A program made the translations under genes and the position numbers. This document shows positions 34,089 to 42,272 of a stretch of DNA of 59,331 nt, one piece after another. Every line of letters starts with the position of its first letter. Within the stretch, counting starts at the first letter, position 1. This DNA is from Psychrobacillus soli. Lineage in GTDB: Bacteria; Bacillota; Bacilli; Bacillales_A; Planococcaceae. The DNA is taken from NCBI RefSeq assembly GCF_006861775.1, contig NZ_VDGG01000023.1, positions 1 to 59,331 on the forward strand, read 5' to 3'. The notes beneath the pieces were generated by a model that saw nothing but the letters and a program-made list of their open reading frames with translations, did not search any database and had not been told where the DNA came from.

Positions 34089-34208
34089 TCCTGTTCCTAC
34101 ATTTTTAATTTTACATGCAAGAATATGATTGTCAACGAAAGAAACTTACGTTATGATGAATGAGAAGTGCAATAAGTTGCGAAAAAGAAAACGGGGGTGT
34201 GCATATTT

Positions 34209-36224
34209 TTGCAAAACATACTCATTGTAGGCGCAGGTAACGGTGGATATGCACTTCTGAAGTTGATTGAACTAGCTGAATACCTACAAGTAACAGCAAT
34301 CGTCGACATCAACGAAGAAGCTCCTGGAATGATTTACGCAAAAGAGCACGATATTCCAACCTTTTCAGATTGGAAATCTCTTATAAGTGGTGACATTCAA
34401 ATCATCATAGATGTAACAGGGCAAAAAGCGGTGTTTCAAGAACTGCTTGCAAATAGACCTGCTACAGCAGTTGTAATACCAGGTGAAATTGCTAACTTAA
34501 TCGTTACATTAGTGGAAGAAAAAAATGACTATATTCAAATTATTGACCGAAAAAAAATGATGCAAGAACTGATTTTCAACTCTGTCGAAGAAGGTATGAT
34601 TGGAATTGATGACCTAGGAATCGTCAATTTTTTCAACAAAAGCGCAGAGAGAATGACGAAAATATCTGCAGAAAATGCAATTGGAAAAAAGGTCCGTCAA
34701 GTAATAAGTCTAAGTGAATTACCAAGAACCTTCGAGACTGGTCGTGTCGAACTAAACAAAGAACTCACTCTTGAAAGCGGTACCAAAATAGTCACATCAA
34801 GGTATCCGATGATCAATGAAGAGGGAAAAAGAGTTGGCGCAATTGCAGTTTTTAAGGATATTACCGAAGTACTTCAACTGGCAGAAGAAATTACTAATTT
34901 AACAGAAATTCAAAAAATGTTAGAAGCAATTATTTATTCGAGTGATGATGCTATTTCCGTCGTGGATGAAGAGGGGAAAGGGATTCTTATTAATCCTGCA
35001 TATACTCGAATTACTGGTTTCAGTGAAGAAGAAGTGATCGGTAAACCGGCAACGGCGGATATTTCAGAAGGGGAAAGTATCCACTTAAAAGTGTTGCAAT
35101 CGAAAAAGCCGATCCGTGGGGTAAATCTTCGCGTTGGAAAACAGAAAAAAGACGTGATCGTCAATGTTGCTCCAATTCTTGTGAATGGCAATTTAAAAGG
35201 GAGTGTCGGGGTAATTCATGACATGACCGAGATGCGCGGACTCATGAAAGAACTGGACCGTGCAAAGACGCTTATTCGTACGCTAGAATCATCGTTTTCA
35301 CTAGAAGATATTTCGGGAACATCCGAAAAGATTAATTTTGCAATAGATCAAGCAAGACTAGCGGCAAGTGTACCTGTCACCGTCCTCTTAAGGGGAGAGG
35401 TTGGTGCGGGGAAAGATTTATTTGCTCATGCGATTCATAGCGAGAGCAATCGCTCGTACCATCCATTTATCCGTGTTAATTGCAGTGCAATGGAAGAACA
35501 TGTATTGGAAAGAGAATTGTTTGGCTTTGAAGAGAGTGGATTAAGTCATGCAGGATTGTTTGAGGATGCTACAAATGGCACTATTTTCTTGGATGAAGTT
35601 GGGGAACTTACGAAAAAGACGCAAGCGAAATTACTTCGCGTTCTTAGAGAAAATGCTATCATTCGAGTTGGGGGAACTTCTTCCATTCCCGTAGATGTCC
35701 GAATTATTGCAGCAAGCAGTTTAAATCTTGAAAAAGCGATGCGTGAAGGCACGTTTAGAGAAGATTTTTATTTCCAATTAAATCGTATGCCTATTCATAT
35801 TCCAGCACTAAGGGAGCGAAAAGAAGACATTCCACTTATAGCGGAACATTTACTTGTGAAGCTTAACCAAGAATTTGGTCGCAATATAGAAGGTTTCACA
35901 GAAGAAGCGATGGAAAGTTTGCTTCAATATGATTGGCCAGGGAATGCTCGAGAACTTGAAAATATTATAAGTCGTTCCATGATTTTCTTACAGCCGAATG
36001 ATCGATTCGTCGAAGAACAGCATTTGCCAAGATCAATGCTTGTTATAGAAGACGAGGATGACATGCCTGATGGAACGCTTGCGGAACAGATGGATGAGAT
36101 GGAGAAGAAAGTGCTAGCACGAACGTTAAAAGTTTGTGGAGGAAACAAATCGCAAACTGCAAAAAAATTGCAAATTTCGTTGCGCACATTATATTACAAA
36201 TTAGAGAAATATAATTTGGTCTAA
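34209..36224 (+). CDS. bkdR: BkdR-like AAA+ activator lacking the GAFTGA loop
   Basis: 671 residues: an N-terminal NAD/CoA-binding-like domain (NILIVGAGNGGYALLKL, 1-115), two PAS domains (about 125-225 and 240-345), an AAA+ domain (Walker A GEVGAGKD; Walker B GTIFLDEVGEL), and a Fis-type helix-turn-helix (NKSQTAKKLQISLRTLYYKL). BkdR of B. subtilis drives the bkd operon with sigma-L. Here the sigma-54 contact loop is missing: between ELFGFE and GLFED there is only ESGLSHA (35532-35552) where GAFTGA and its flanks belong. The rest of the AAA+ domain is intact. The start is TTG 34209, nine bases after GGGGGTG. Confidence 0.88.
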   Translation: MQNILIVGAGNGGYALLKLIELAEYLQVTAIVDINEEAPGMIYAKEHDIPTFSDWKSLISGDIQIIIDVTGQKAVFQELLANRPATAVVIPGEIANLIVTLVEEKNDYIQIIDRKKMMQELIFNSVEEGMIGIDDLGIVNFFNKSAERMTKISAENAIGKKVRQVISLSELPRTFETGRVELNKELTLESGTKIVTSRYPMINEEGKRVGAIAVFKDITEVLQLAEEITNLTEIQKMLEAIIYSSDDAISVVDEEGKGILINPAYTRITGFSEEEVIGKPATADISEGESIHLKVLQSKKPIRGVNLRVGKQKKDVIVNVAPILVNGNLKGSVGVIHDMTEMRGLMKELDRAKTLIRTLESSFSLEDISGTSEKINFAIDQARLAASVPVTVLLRGEVGAGKDLFAHAIHSESNRSYHPFIRVNCSAMEEHVLERELFGFEESGLSHAGLFEDATNGTIFLDEVGELTKKTQAKLLRVLRENAIIRVGGTSSIPVDVRIIAASSLNLEKAMREGTFREDFYFQLNRMPIHIPALRERKEDIPLIAEHLLVKLNQEFGRNIEGFTEEAMESLLQYDWPGNARELENIISRSMIFLQPNDRFVEEQHLPRSMLVIEDEDDMPDGTLAEQMDEMEKKVLARTLKVCGGNKSQTAKKLQISLRTLYYKLEKYNLV

Positions 36225-36309
36225 AATGGGAGTTACGTTCAAGCAACAAGGGGTATTCATCATATATAGATAGACAAACTAATCATTTAACTACTAGGAG
36301 GAACTACAC

Positions 36310-37404
36310 ATGGAAATTTTTAAATATATGGAAACTTACGATTATGAGCAATTAGTATTTTGCCAAGACAAAACTTCAGGATTAAAAGCAATTATTGCGA
36401 TTCACGATACTACACTTGGACCTGCACTTGGTGGAACCCGTATGTGGAATTATGCGTCAGAAGAAGAAGCAATTGAAGATGCCTTGCGACTAGCAAAAGG
36501 CATGACATACAAAAATGCTGCTGCTGGTCTTAATCTTGGTGGCGGTAAAACAGTTATTATTGGAGATCCATTAAAAGACAAAAATGAAGAAATGTTCCGT
36601 GCATTTGGTCGTTTCATCCAAGGGTTAAATGGTCGTTATATTACAGCAGAAGATGTAGGTACTACTGTAGCAGATATGGACATTATTCATGAAGAAACGA
36701 ATTATGTGACTGGTATTTCTGAAGCATTCGGTTCATCAGGTAATCCATCACCAGTAACTGCTTACGGTGTATATGTAGGGATGAAAGCCGCTGCAAAAGA
36801 AGCGTTTGGCTCTGATTTATTAGAAGGAAAAACAGTTGCAGTTCAAGGAGTAGGAAACGTTGCATTTACGTTATGCGACTACTTACATAAAGAAGGTGCG
36901 AAACTGATTGTAGCGGATATTAACCAAGCTTCGGTAGATCGTGCTGTAAATGCATTCGATGCAGTTCAAGTAGACGTAGATGAAATTTACGCACAAGATG
37001 CGGATATTTTCGCTCCATGTGCACTTGGTGCAATTATTAATGACAACACAATTCCGCAACTAAAAGTAAAAGTAATTGCAGGTTCAGCAAATAACCAACT
37101 AAAAGACACAAAACATGGTGATTTAATCCATCAAATGGGCATTGCATATGCACCAGATTATGTGATCAACTCAGGTGGCGTAATTAACGTTGCAGACGAG
37201 TTAAATGGCTACAATCACGATCGTGCAATGAAGCGTGTTGCTGGTATATATGATACAATTGAAAAGATTTTCGCTATTTCTAAAAGAGATGAAATTCCAA
37301 CATACGTTGCAGCAGATCGACTTGCGGAAGAGCGCATTGAACGCTTAGGAAAATCAAGAAGCCAATTTTTACAAAATGGCAAACATATTATTACAGGGCG
37401 TTAA
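36310..37404 (+). CDS. bcd: Leucine dehydrogenase
   Basis: NAD-dependent deamination of leucine, valine and isoleucine to 2-oxoacids, 364 residues, octamer in relatives. Catalytic region [15 protein letters not shown] with the substrate-binding Lys, an upstream LALGGTRMW-type block ([11 protein letters not shown]) and the cofactor domain with [18 protein letters not shown] lies before the ATG. It feeds the dehydrogenase complex encoded downstream. No ptb or buk gene flanks it, unlike B. subtilis. Confidence 0.96.
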
Positions 37405-37520: not shown

Positions 37521-38951
37521 TTGGCAAAAGAATATGATGTAGTCATTATTGGTGGCGGTACTGGTGGGTACGTAGCTGCTATTAGATCCGCACAATTGGG
37601 TTTAAAAACTGCAATTGTAGAAAAAGGAAACCTCGGAGGCACATGTTTACATAAAGGATGTATTCCGAGTAAAGCATTGCTACGTAGTGCGGAAGTATAT
37701 GCAACTACTAAAAATCATGCTGCTGACTTTGGGGTTAACACGTCTGAAGTGACGCTTGACTTTAGTCGAGTACAAGCACGAAAAGAATCCATTGTTAGCC
37801 AGTTACATCAAGGTGTACAAGGACTAATGAAAAAAGGTAAAATTGATGTGTATGAAGGTACTGGAAGAATGCTTGGTCCATCCATCTTTTCGCCATCACC
37901 AGGTGGCACAATTTCAGTTGAAATGAATAATGGCGATGAAAATGAAATGCTTATTCCGAAAAATGTAGTCATTGCAACTGGTTCTAGACCACGTACTTTA
38001 CCAGGACTTACAATAGACGGGACATTTGTCATGAGTTCTGACGAAGCATTAGCAATGACGGAATTACCAAAATCGATCCTGATTGTCGGTGGTGGTGTGA
38101 TCGGAATCGAATGGGCTTCCATGTTGAATGACTTCGGAGTAGAAGTGACGGTTATTGAGTATGCAGATCGTATCATACCTACAGAAGATAAAGATATTTC
38201 CAAAGAAATGCAAAAACTACTTGCTAAAAAAGGAATTACATTTGTAACAAGTGCAAAAGTGCTTCCAGAAACACTTCAAACAGGAGACAATCAAGTTACG
38301 ATTTCTGCAGAACTAAATGGAGAAAACAAAACATTCACTGCTGAAAAAATGCTTGTATCTGTAGGGCGTCAAGCAAATGTGGAAGGCATTGGGATTGAAA
38401 ATACCGATATCGTTGTGGAAAAAGGATTTATCCAAGTATCTGAAACATTCCAAACAAAAGAATCTCATATATATGCTATTGGTGATGTGATTGGAGGACT
38501 TCAATTGGCGCACGTGGCCAGTCATGAAGGAATTACTGCAATCGAGCACCTCGCTGGAAACGAAATTTCACCGATTGACTATAAACTAGTTTCTCGCTGT
38601 ATTTATTCGAGTCCTGAAAGCTCAAGCGTTGGTATTACAGAACAACAAGCAAAAGAGCAAGGATTTGATGTGAAGATTGGTAAATTCTCATTTAAAGCTA
38701 TAGGGAAAGCACTAGTTTACGGCGAGTCGGATGGCTTTGTGAAAATTGTTGCGAATAAAGCAACAAATGATATTTTAGGTGTTCATATGATAGGTCCACA
38801 TGTAACCGATATGATTTCAGAAGCGGGTCTTGCTATGGTTCTTGATGCAACTCCTTGGGAAATCGCACATACGATTCACCCGCATCCTACACTTAGTGAA
38901 GTAATGGGTGAAGCGGCACTTGCTGTAGATGGTAAAGCTATTCATATGTAA
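37521..38951 (+). CDS. lpdV: Dihydrolipoyl dehydrogenase (E3) of the branched-chain complex
   Basis: FAD enzyme of 476 residues that re-oxidises the lipoyl group of E2 with NAD. Features: N-terminal FAD motif VVIIGGGTGGYVAAIRSAQ, the redox disulfide in GGTCLHKGCIPSKALL, the NAD motif ILIVGGGVIGIEWA, and the C-terminal His-Glu pair in HTIHPHPTLSEVMGEA. TTG 37521 with AGGAGG upstream. bkdAA follows after 16 bases. Dedicated to this complex by position. Confidence 0.95.
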   Translation: MAKEYDVVIIGGGTGGYVAAIRSAQLGLKTAIVEKGNLGGTCLHKGCIPSKALLRSAEVYATTKNHAADFGVNTSEVTLDFSRVQARKESIVSQLHQGVQGLMKKGKIDVYEGTGRMLGPSIFSPSPGGTISVEMNNGDENEMLIPKNVVIATGSRPRTLPGLTIDGTFVMSSDEALAMTELPKSILIVGGGVIGIEWASMLNDFGVEVTVIEYADRIIPTEDKDISKEMQKLLAKKGITFVTSAKVLPETLQTGDNQVTISAELNGENKTFTAEKMLVSVGRQANVEGIGIENTDIVVEKGFIQVSETFQTKESHIYAIGDVIGGLQLAHVASHEGITAIEHLAGNEISPIDYKLVSRCIYSSPESSSVGITEQQAKEQGFDVKIGKFSFKAIGKALVYGESDGFVKIVANKATNDILGVHMIGPHVTDMISEAGLAMVLDATPWEIAHTIHPHPTLSEVMGEAALAVDGKAIHM

Positions 38952-38967
38952 AAAGGAGGAGTTCTAC

Positions 38968-39978
38968 ATGACAACAAATCGTCACGCAGAATTAGGGTTA
39001 ACAAATGAAGATGTGTTGAAAATGTTCGAAACGATGCTAATGGCACGTCGTATTGACGAACGTATGTGGTTATTAAACCGCGCTGGTAAAATTCCTTTCG
39101 TTATATCTTGTCAAGGTCAAGAAGCAGCACAAGTAGGAGCAGCATTTGCACTGGACAATACGAAGGATTATATCGCACCTTACTACCGTGATATGGGCGT
39201 TGTTTTACATTTCGGTATGACTGCAAAAGATTTGATGCTATCTGCCTTTGCAAAAGCGGAAGATCCAAACTCTGGCGGTCGCCAAATGCCTGGTCATTTT
39301 GGACAAAAGAAAAATAGAATTTTGACTGGTTCTTCACCGGTTACTACTCAATTGCCACATGCTGTGGGAGTAGCACTTGCTGCAAAAATTGAGAAAAAAG
39401 ATTTTATTACGTTTGTAACTTTAGGAGAAGGTTCTTCTAACCAAGGTGATTTCCACGAAGGGCTAAACTTTGCGGGCGTTCACCAATTACCATGTATTAC
39501 AATGGTTGAAAACAACAACTACGCAATTTCTGTTCCATTTGAACGCCAAGTAGCAAGTAAAACCGTTGCAGATCGTGCATCTAGTTATGGTATGCCCGGT
39601 GTGAGGGTGGATGGAAAAGATCCAATTGCTGTTTATAAAGTAGTAAAAGAAGCGGCAGATCGCGCTCGTACTGGAGAAGGTCCAAGCTTAATCGAAGCGG
39701 TAACCTACCGTTTAACTGCGCACTCTTCGGATGATGATGATCGTCAGTACCGTACGGCAGAGGATATTGCAGAAGGTAAAGCGCTAGATCCACTTATTAC
39801 GTTTGCAAAATATTTACGTGATAATGATATTTTAACGATAGAACAAGAGAAAGAGATTAACGACCGCATCATGAAAGAAGTAAACGAAGCAACAGATTAT
39901 GCAGAAAACGCACCTTATGCTGCTCCGGAAGATGCATTGAAATATGTATATGCAGAAAAAGATGGGGGGAACGCATAA
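38968..39978 (+). CDS. bkdAA: Branched-chain 2-oxoacid dehydrogenase E1 alpha
   Basis: 336 residues, thiamine diphosphate-dependent decarboxylase subunit. ThDP region GEGSSNQGDFHEGLNFAGVHQLPCITMVENNNYAIS, with the GDG-type and NN motifs, and the phosphorylation-loop-like RLTAHSSDDDDRQYR. I use ATG 38968 because AAAGGAGGAG lies just before it; the frame upstream to 38929 overlaps lpdV. Its stop overlaps the bkdAB start as TAATG. Confidence 0.95.
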   Translation: MTTNRHAELGLTNEDVLKMFETMLMARRIDERMWLLNRAGKIPFVISCQGQEAAQVGAAFALDNTKDYIAPYYRDMGVVLHFGMTAKDLMLSAFAKAEDPNSGGRQMPGHFGQKKNRILTGSSPVTTQLPHAVGVALAAKIEKKDFITFVTLGEGSSNQGDFHEGLNFAGVHQLPCITMVENNNYAISVPFERQVASKTVADRASSYGMPGVRVDGKDPIAVYKVVKEAADRARTGEGPSLIEAVTYRLTAHSSDDDDRQYRTAEDIAEGKALDPLITFAKYLRDNDILTIEQEKEINDRIMKEVNEATDYAENAPYAAPEDALKYVYAEKDGGNA

Positions 39979-40961
39979 TGGCAATCATGTCTTATATCGA
40001 TGCAATCACACTTGCAATGAAAGAAGAAATGACTCGCGATGAGCGCGTATTCGTTCTTGGAGAAGACGTAGGTCGAAAAGGCGGTGTATTCAAAGCAACG
40101 AATGGTCTGTATGATGAGTTCGGTGAATACCGCGTCTTAGACACACCTCTTGCTGAGTCAGCCATTGCTGGTGTAGGTATTGGTGCGGCAATGTACGGTC
40201 TTCGTCCAATTGCGGAAATGCAGTTTGCAGATTTCATCATGCCTGCTGTGAACCAAATTATTTCCGAAGCGGCACGTATTCGTTACCGTTCCAACAATGA
40301 CTGGACGTGTCCAATCGTTATTCGTGCTCCGTTTGGTGGTGGTATACACGGTGCACTGTATCACTCACAATCAGTGGAAGCCATTTTTGCTAACCAACCA
40401 GGATTGAAAATTGTTATTCCTTCCACTCCATACGATGCGAAAGGATTATTAAAAGCGGCAATTCGCGATGAAGATCCAGTGATGTTCTTTGAGCATAAAC
40501 GTGCATATCGCCTTATTAAAGGCGAAGTTCCGGAAGAAGATTATACAATTGAAATCGGAAAAGCAGATGTAAAACGTGAAGGGGAAGATATTACGGTCAT
40601 TACGTATGGTCTTGCTGTTCACTTTGCATTGCAAGCGGCAGAACGTTTAGAAAAAGACGGAATTTCCGCACATATCCTTGATTTACGTACTATTTATCCT
40701 TTAGATAAAGAAGCAATCATAGAAGCTGCTTCTAAAACAGGAAAAGTACTGCTCGTTACTGAAGATAACAAAGAGGGCAGTATCATTGGGGAAGTAGCTG
40801 CAATCATTGCAGAAAATTGCTTATTTGATCTAGATGCTCCAATTATGCGCCTTGCTGGTCCAGATATTCCTGCTATGCCATATGCGCCAACGATGGAAAA
40901 ATTCTTTATGATCAATCCAGACAAAGTCGAAAAAGCGATGCGCGAACTAGCGGAATATTAA
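39978..40961 (+). CDS. bkdAB: Branched-chain 2-oxoacid dehydrogenase E1 beta
   Basis: 327 residues, equal to B. subtilis BkdAB. It completes the E1 heterotetramer. Conserved parts are LGEDVGRKGGVFKATNGL, DTPLAESAIAGVGIGAAM, FADFIMPAVNQII and the C-terminal DLDAPIMRLAGPDIPAMPYA. GATGGGGGG in the end of bkdAA serves as ribosome binding site, so the two subunits are coupled. Confidence 0.95.
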   Translation: MAIMSYIDAITLAMKEEMTRDERVFVLGEDVGRKGGVFKATNGLYDEFGEYRVLDTPLAESAIAGVGIGAAMYGLRPIAEMQFADFIMPAVNQIISEAARIRYRSNNDWTCPIVIRAPFGGGIHGALYHSQSVEAIFANQPGLKIVIPSTPYDAKGLLKAAIRDEDPVMFFEHKRAYRLIKGEVPEEDYTIEIGKADVKREGEDITVITYGLAVHFALQAAERLEKDGISAHILDLRTIYPLDKEAIIEAASKTGKVLLVTEDNKEGSIIGEVAAIIAENCLFDLDAPIMRLAGPDIPAMPYAPTMEKFFMINPDKVEKAMRELAEY

Positions 40962-40973
40962 GGAGGAACTTAC

Positions 40974-42272
40974 ATGGCTTTAGAACAAATCAAAATGCCT
41001 CAACTCGGTGAAAGTGTTACAGAAGGAACGATCGAAAAATGGTTAGTAAAACCAGGCGATCATGTCAATAAGTACGACGCTCTAGCGGAAGTAAATACAG
41101 ACAAAGTAACAGCTGAAGTGCCTTCTTCTTTTACTGGTGTTATTAAAGAACTAATTGCAAACGAAGGAGACACACTTGCAGTTGGAGAAGTCGTTTGTAC
41201 GATTGAAACAGAAGGTGGGGCTACAGAAGAAGTAGTGGAAGCTGCACCAGAACAGCCAACTGCTGAAACAGTAAAACCAACAGAAGTGCAAAAGCATACT
41301 ACTCCAGTCAACCGTGAAAAAGGAGCAAAAGCTCGTTACTCACCAGCAGTACTTAAGTTATCGCAAGAACATGGAATTGATCTTACGTTAGTGAATGGCA
41401 CTGGCAATGAAGGACGAATTACACGTAAAGATTTGCTGAAAATTATTGAAAGCGGAGAAATTCCAGTAGCTACACAAGCAGAACCAAAAGTGGAGCAAGC
41501 CCAAGCGACACCACAAGCCCAAATAACAGCTGCACCAAAAGCAGCTCCGGTAAATGTCCCTGTGGCAGTTGGAGATATTGAAATTCCAATAACAGGTGTT
41601 CGTAAAGCAATCGCAGCAAATATGTTACGTAGTAAACATGAAGCTCCACATGCTTGGACGATGATTGAGGTGGATGTAACAAGCTTAGTACAATATCGTG
41701 ATTCACTCAAAACGGAATTTAAAGCAAAAGAAGGCTTCAACTTAACGTACTTCGCATTTTTCGTAAAAGCTGTTGCCCAAGCACTGAAAGAATTCCCAAT
41801 GATGAATTCAATGTGGGCTGGTGACAAAATCATACAGAAAAAAGATATCAATATTTCCATCGCTGTTGCGACAGAAGATGCACTATTCGTTCCAGTCATC
41901 AAAAACGCTGACGAGAAAACGATTAAAGGCATCGGACGTGAAGTAAACGAACTTGCCGCAAAAGTTCGTTCTGGTAAGTTAAAATCAGACGAAATGCAAG
42001 GTGGTACTTTCACTGTAAACAACACAGGATCATTCGGTTCGGTTCAGTCAATGGGAATTATCAACTACCCACAAGCAGCGATTCTTCAAGTTGAATCCAT
42101 CGTAAAACGTCCAGTAATTATGGATGGTGGAATGATTGCTGCTCGTGATATGGTAAACCTATGTCTATCACTAGACCACCGTGTACTTGACGGTTTAGTT
42201 GCTGGTCGTTTCCTAGCACGGGTGAAAGAAATTTTGGAGAATATAACAAAAGAGAATACATCTATTTATTAA
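40974..42272 (+). CDS. bkdB: Branched-chain 2-oxoacid dehydrogenase E2
   Basis: 432 residues. One lipoyl domain (1-78, with lipoylated Lys44 in VNTDKVTAE), a Glu/Ala/Pro linker, the peripheral subunit-binding domain (about 122-160, ARYSPAVLKLSQEHGIDL), a second Ala/Pro/Gln linker and the acyltransferase domain with the catalytic LSLDHRVLDGL. It forms the core of the complex and makes isobutyryl-, isovaleryl- and 2-methylbutyryl-CoA, primers of branched fatty acids. GGAGG lies before the ATG. Terminator follows. Confidence 0.95.
   Translation: MALEQIKMPQLGESVTEGTIEKWLVKPGDHVNKYDALAEVNTDKVTAEVPSSFTGVIKELIANEGDTLAVGEVVCTIETEGGATEEVVEAAPEQPTAETVKPTEVQKHTTPVNREKGAKARYSPAVLKLSQEHGIDLTLVNGTGNEGRITRKDLLKIIESGEIPVATQAEPKVEQAQATPQAQITAAPKAAPVNVPVAVGDIEIPITGVRKAIAANMLRSKHEAPHAWTMIEVDVTSLVQYRDSLKTEFKAKEGFNLTYFAFFVKAVAQALKEFPMMNSMWAGDKIIQKKDINISIAVATEDALFVPVIKNADEKTIKGIGREVNELAAKVRSGKLKSDEMQGGTFTVNNTGSFGSVQSMGIINYPQAAILQVESIVKRPVIMDGGMIAARDMVNLCLSLDHRVLDGLVAGRFLARVKEILENITKENTSIY

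Follow-up and report, generated by a model that had tools for sequence, protein, structure and literature searches.

In the 59,331-nucleotide stretch of DNA analysed here (the window), the bkdR gene of Psychrobacillus soli encodes a regulator that is without the sigma-54 loop, and the noncoding gap ahead of the bkd genes is without a -24/-12 promoter. Change in both loop and promoter is common to several genera and is not confined to Psychrobacillus. We consider it reasonably likely that BkdR here is sigma-54-independent and serves, probably, as an autorepressor of a bkdR-bkd transcript. An earlier note on this DNA had proposed that the bkd operon was moved from sigma-L to sigma-A control with BkdR adapted to fit. 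This idea is supported by the co-occurrence of loop and promoter in 140 proteins, by the loss of ATPase-coupling residues, by a sigma-A-type promoter and a palindrome before bkdR, and by the state of sigL, which is not linked to gapA in this genome, is missing from the gapA slot and was not found in 6/17 Psychrobacillus genomes. One correction is needed, in that the sigma-A-type promoter and the palindrome precede bkdR and not bcd; we infer that bkd would be transcribed by sigma-A.

We take the regulator to be BkdR because bcd, lpdV, bkdAA, bkdAB and bkdB lie downstream of it; ptb is absent between bkdR and bcd in the window. Full-length similarity, two PAS domains and the bkd neighbours identify it as a BkdR ortholog (54-64% identical to 22 aligned rows of other genera), with Pfam matches to PAS (two stretches), Sigma54_activat (PF00158, 173.9 bits), AAA_lid_14 and HTH_8. 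The NCBIfam models for TyrR (243.5 against a cut-off of 576) and NtrC (233.3 against 558.6) both score far below threshold; the tree covered BkdR rows alone, and it is likeness over the full length together with the neighbourhood that point to BkdR. The protein has 675 residues from the GTG at 34197, or 671 if the TTG at 34209 is the start; the TTG is the likelier of the two, having a better fit to the ribosome site and to relatives.

Orthologs for comparison came from several sets. BkdR was present in 71/151 genomes of the family, of which 70 entered the comparison (all but G140, whose match reached no further than residue 446), and in 111/200 genomes of a second set, which contributed just the ones that came back as loci; for relatives the best 80 of 510 were used. 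Groups were assigned from genus codes and from identical proteins in named records, the named genera being ones we take to belong to the family. Fifty outgroup rows are from Bacillaceae genera by title, except one Paenibacillus, one 'Bacillales' MAG and one uncultured source. The Psychrobacillus sample consists of 18 distinct rows, namely 17 genomes (g1) and P. lasiicapitis; the genome analysed here carries the code g1, as do genomes with a BkdR identical to that in named Psychrobacillus records.

At the loop, relatives that retain the motif have the pattern ELFG[YF]E[ED]G[AS]F[TS]GA-x6-G[LF]FE or a near variant. Residues 440-457 of the P. soli protein read ELFGFEESGLSHAGLFED, in which GAFTGA is not recognisable, with a net loss of six residues against relatives that carry the motif. 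The earlier note had described the motif and its flanks as deleted. The motif is indeed gone, but the deletion of flanks is slightly too strong a statement, since SGLSHA can also be aligned on GAFTGA as a decayed copy (1/6 positions identical), in which case the next six residues are the deletion. Alignment with homologues, which had been suggested, shows the motif in some relatives and its absence, with identical loop length, in 18/18 distinct Psychrobacillus rows.

The remainder of the AAA+ domain is altered more selectively. Walker A (K406), Walker B (D466 and E467) and a Fis-type helix-turn-helix (the HTH_8 match) are present, as had been read from the sequence at the outset, and so is the first arginine finger, R521. 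Across all 18 Psychrobacillus rows the Walker A lysine, Walker B D/E, first arginine finger and sensor II arginine are retained; the second arginine finger is Q in 18/18, and sensor I is S-S in 14 and S-Y in 4. Outgroup rows have R at the second finger in 50/50 and T at sensor I in 50/50, followed by N (44) or H (6). Planococcus rows retain every ATPase residue counted, except that N428 is S in 3/32. The roles of the arginine fingers and sensor sites in BkdR are presumed here from work on PspF. With Walker motifs, finger 1 and sensor II kept, and finger 2 and sensor I lost, the pattern suggests that Psychrobacillus BkdR would bind ATP and not productively hydrolyse it.

Loop and promoter were scored together. 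A site was called -24/-12-like when it matched TGGCAC-N5-TTGCW at 9 or more of 11 positions within the noncoding stretch ahead of ptb or bcd, and the 178 BkdR proteins, reduced to 140 distinct ones, were divided by the motif class G[AS]F[TS]GA into 62 with and 78 without. Such a site was present for 61/62 proteins with the motif and for 1/78 without it (L054, in which the -24 GG is missing); requiring both GG and GC as well gave 60/62 versus 0/78. Outgroup rows make up 50 of the 62, and within Planococcaceae alone the site was present for 11/12 with the motif and 1/78 without. The motif-bearing exception, L045, comes from a MAG placed next to Paenisporosarcina and has the loop retained and the promoter lost. 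In the window no site of the 85-nt gap before bcd scored above 7/11, which agrees with the earlier reading that no GG-N10-GC promoter lies there. On a quick tree with the loop columns excluded (105 of the 140 proteins, 16 of the 50 outgroup rows, L076 left out) the loop state requires at least three changes, and by our own reading the losses number four if the loop was never regained. As only three changes are needed, a relatedness-aware test of the association has 3 independent pairs, gives p of 0.25-0.5 and is unable to reach significance.

Upstream of bkdR itself we found a sigma-A-type promoter (Table 1) whose hexamers and spacing recur across Psychrobacillus. The promoter scan overall was no richer than shuffles (8 sites versus a mean of 9.5), so it is conservation that carries the argument for the bkdR promoter. 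Just downstream lies a palindrome, TGCAA-N4-TTGCA, which was spotted by eye in these regions and counted afterwards, the counts excluding L076 with its split frame. Box 1, with at most one mismatch, is present in 17/17 Psychrobacillus rows (13 exact; shuffles gave 0.25 and 0.05), and in 17/17 its distance from the -10 hexamer is the same, the box beginning 10 nt past it. The position of the possible second box is occupied by an exact box in 4/4 rows of the sister genus g2. When one mismatch is allowed, boxes upstream of bkdR are widespread, being found in 32/32 Planococcus, 10/10 Sporosarcina-like, 8/8 Bhargavaea-like and 4/4 g2 rows and in 47/50 of the outgroup (12 exact), and in only 2/4 Rummeliibacillus rows. 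Genome-wide there were 8 exact boxes versus 4 for a backward control; each of the 8 falls within an open frame, and a BkdR regulon is therefore not indicated.

In the gap downstream of bkdR, exact boxes lie upstream of ptb in 8/8 Paenisporosarcina (L038-L045) and 32/32 Planococcus rows, and the outgroup has a box there in 29/50 with one mismatch allowed (9 exact); none was found in the gap in 17 Psychrobacillus, 8 Bhargavaea-like, 10 Sporosarcina-like or 4 g2 rows. Median gap lengths are 35 nt in Bhargavaea-like, 24 in Sporosarcina-like (one row has 115) and 14 in g2 rows. No terminator-like site was found in the 85-nt bkdR-bcd intergenic stretch, and bkdR itself contains one (35311-35328). 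A weak promoter-like site (9/12) at the 3' end of bkdR, 36168-36195, could drive bcd separately. Most Psychrobacillus gaps before bcd (L022-L037) have TTCAA..GGGGTATT..TATA in common, and those of L031 and L035-L037 differ, with GGGGATG-type stretches. Before ptb, on the downstream side of the BkdR boxes, Planococcus and Paenisporosarcina conserve a sequence similar to ATAAARCGYTTWCA, which we take to resemble the CcpA cre site consensus; the outgroup consensus in this gap is TAAAGCGTTTTCA.

Table 1. Features of the bkdR-bkd region, in positions of the window
Feature	Position	Strand	Detail
Sigma-A-type promoter of bkdR	34129..34157	+	TTGTCA-17-TATGAT; 10/12 consensus matches
Putative BkdR box 1	34168..34181	.	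TGCAATAAGTTGCG; consensus TGCAA-N4-TTGCA, one mismatch
bkdR	34197..36224	+	PAS-PAS-AAA+-Fis HTH regulator without sigma-54 loop; Pfam and orthologs
GTG start of bkdR	34197..34199	+	Taken from ORF tool list
Possible second box, imperfect	34200..34213	.	TGCATATTTTTGCA; covers likely start codon; spacing to box 1 is 32 bp
Decayed loop 1 of bkdR	35514..35570	+	ELFGFEESGLSHAGLFEDA; comparison with intact relatives
Sensor I, residues 507-508	35715..35720	+	S-S; most orthologs with intact loop have T-N
Second arginine finger, residue 527	35775..35777	+	Q (YFQLN)
Gap before bcd	36225..36309	+	85 nt; without -24/-12, box or terminator-like site
bcd-like Leu/Val dehydrogenase	36310..37404	+	Pfam
lpdV, bkdAA, bkdAB, bkdB	37521..42272	+	Pfam; lpdV also NCBIfam dihydrolipoyl dehydrogenase

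We reason that BkdR would bind box 1 as a repressor, and that bkdR and bkd would be transcribed together by read-through from the sigma-A-type promoter of bkdR. This reading is preferred because of the position of the box, the absence of a terminator-like site from the gap, the placement of bcd directly after bkdR in 18/18 distinct Psychrobacillus rows and the short gaps in relatives. Branched-chain amino acid status would be sensed through the N-terminal and PAS domains, and on sensing branched-chain amino acids or keto acids BkdR would release the box or change its oligomer state, a state that ATP binding by the AAA+ ring, and not hydrolysis, may set. An old autorepression arm of BkdR would now govern the whole operon.

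Binding downstream of a -10 hexamer usually represses. The Psychrobacillus box stands in just such a position and the gap has a box in 0/17 rows, which tells against the main rival, namely that BkdR is a sigma-A activator working at its own promoter or at a weak promoter before bcd. We hold this to be rather unlikely, yet there are points in its favour: the NtrC of Rhodobacter capsulatus, which is without GAFTGA, is reported to activate through sigma-70, with ATP binding and not hydrolysis being essential (PMC10274813); the Psychrobacillus gap has the partly conserved TTCAA-to-TATA stretch; and the boxes far upstream of ptb in all Planococcus rows would suit activation. Planococcus, with upstream boxes kept, may well work in this manner.

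It also should be considered that BkdR is decaying toward a pseudogene, its activator role lost, with bkd constitutive or under other regulators. Median dN/dS of the AAA+ domain is 0.065 in Psychrobacillus, roughly four times the 0.017 of Rossellomorea-like rows (0.013 in Anoxybacillus-like rows); these values come only from pairs with dS of 0.05-1.5 (for AAA+, 23/120 Psychrobacillus pairs), dS being near saturation. That elevation would fit decay, as would the lost ATPase residues and the split frame in 1/17 genomes. The split case, G057:C1:391179-393208 (L076), has bkdR in two frames, through sequencing error or recent damage. Against decay, the other 16 genomes have open frames of 675-689 aa (G141 and G147 with one TGA within the matched stretch), dN/dS medians across three parts of the protein are 0.065-0.08, and the palindrome is retained. 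Purifying selection still acts on BkdR, including the AAA+ domain without GAFTGA, and we regard decay as improbable.

The P. soli genome has a sigL gene (PF04552 match at C7:67370), and absence of sigL as the simple cause is rejected for this genome. The earlier note had set a sigL gene together with a -24/-12 promoter before bcd against its own claim; sigL was found and the promoter was not, so that this test is only half decisive. PF04552 was found in 83/151 family genomes and 11/17 Psychrobacillus genomes, and the BkdR motif is missing in 17/17 of the latter, in the 11 where sigL was found as in the 6 where the PF04552 search did not find it. Among the sigL stretches examined (40 from the family, L210-L249, a subset of its PF04552 matches, and 10 from the outgroup), sigL is near gapA in 10/10 outgroup genomes and in only 5/40 family stretches, three belonging to g5 (Viridibacillus) and one each to the Paenisporosarcina genomes G082 and G047. 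The P. soli copy adjoins hutH and falls in a different clade from the gapA-linked copies on a quick sigL tree that carries long-branch warnings; a further type with long branches occurs in some Psychrobacillus (L218-L222), and G082 has three sigL genes (L223, L224, L225) of two clades.

Stretches next to gapA were taken from 16 genomes, in two of which they were too short, and the stretch upstream of cggR-gapA in P. soli has no sigL. Between lemA/tpm-like genes and cggR (L290 2613-4323, G000:C59), the place that bears sigL in relatives, stands an apparent ECF sigma factor with a partner gene, both named by eye. The cause of the change in BkdR could be that a gapA-linked sigL was lost in an ancestor and that the present sigL was acquired later and serves other activators. 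A GAFTGA-like loop is present in 13/16 strong Sigma54_activat proteins of the genome. Two Sigma54_activat proteins without GAFTGA, L014 (G000:C14:39832-40329) and L015 (G000:C13:39521-40009), read LFGTEKDTLTATPD and ELFGKLDLATGKFSRG, and other activators besides BkdR may have been converted too.

These same facts, a sigL gene and intact loops in most other activators, are what could be said for BkdR still activating through the present sigL by means of an altered loop and an atypical promoter. We think this very unlikely: no -24/-12 site lies before bcd, the six Psychrobacillus genomes without a sigL found have a BkdR loop of the same kind, and changes at the F and T of GAFTGA mostly abolish activity (PMC3162934). 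An assembly or sequencing artefact is refuted by the loop length shared by all 18 distinct Psychrobacillus rows, and its probability is negligible.

The genomes of Paenisporosarcina differ in the gapA slot. With the slot filled (G082, G047) the loop is GAFTGA and the promoter, TGGCACACTTTATGCT, scores 10/11. With the slot empty, G061 retains GSFTGA but has TGCCAC in its promoter, and G100 has lost both loop and promoter. Three further slot-empty genomes of one clade, G030, G011 and G072, have the loops GAFVGA, DAFAGA and DAFVGA and promoter scores of 8, 8 and 7, with GG and GC still retained. The slot could not be scored in two genomes whose contigs end there: G091, with loop and promoter intact and no sigL found, and G107 (81% complete), with the loop intact, no promoter and no sigL found. 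Such a pattern would be expected if sigL loss came first and loop and promoter then decayed in either order, and the order is not fixed, G061 and L045 being opposite to G011, G072 and G030. Loss of the gapA-linked sigL does not force the change, however, as the four Rummeliibacillus genomes have only the other type of sigL and retain loop and promoter (G035 is the one in which the slot was examined). The Rummeliibacillus copies cluster with the second sigL gene of Viridibacillus, and the system may there have been rescued by a second copy present early on.

Taken further, and more tentatively, the related genomes may record the operon's sigma-factor switch. Deletion of the gapA-linked sigL would be followed by decay of the -24/-12 promoter and of the GAFTGA loop, in either order, and later, in some lineages, ATPase-coupling residues and enhancer boxes would be lost and the gap would shrink. 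An ATP-driven remote activator would in this way become an ATP-binding roadblock repressor, with autorepression at its own sigma-A promoter as the operon's only control. We give this scenario less weight because decay followed no single order and because GG and GC persist in one clade. Activators independent of sigma-54 have so far been described singly, and the way in which protein, promoter and sigma factor change jointly while control is maintained has been difficult to observe. Close relatives here allow loop, promoter, boxes, ATPase residues and sigL all to be followed, and a single genus, Paenisporosarcina, supplies intermediates. There is a practical consequence also, in that a Pfam match alone is unsafe ground for annotating such proteins as sigma-54-dependent.

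Among the literature matches listed, no title dealt with a Planococcaceae BkdR that had lost GAFTGA. The BkdR proteins of B. subtilis and B. thuringiensis share with that of Psychrobacillus the two PAS domains, the AAA+ domain and the place before the bkd genes; they have a GAFTGA or GAFSGA loop and a -24/-12 promoter, and Psychrobacillus BkdR has neither. The B. thuringiensis sigma-54 promoter, TTGGCACGGTATTTGCT, was assayed with lacZ in a bkdR mutant (PMC4428206). GAFTGA is substituted or deleted in TyrR, DhaR, HupR, VpsR and YplP, with sigma-70 dependence shown for the first three and sigma-54 dependence doubted for the last two; these belong to families other than BkdR, and the available part of that account describes no intermediate series tied to promoter and sigma-factor loss (PMC3162934). 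The NtrC proteins of R. capsulatus and Caulobacter have a deletion in loop 1 around GAFTGA and regulate sigma-70 promoters, according to a preprint (PMC10274813). NtrC in these genera is a response regulator, and the deletions differ from that of BkdR; furthermore, a need for ATP hydrolysis was inferred for Caulobacter NtrC by its authors (PMC10274813), whereas Psychrobacillus BkdR has lost an arginine finger and sensor I. Loss of GAFTGA from an NtrC-like protein is thus common to TyrR, Rhodobacter NtrC and BkdR, the last remaining under purifying selection, and while such loss is known elsewhere, the coupled loss of loop and promoter in BkdR looks new.
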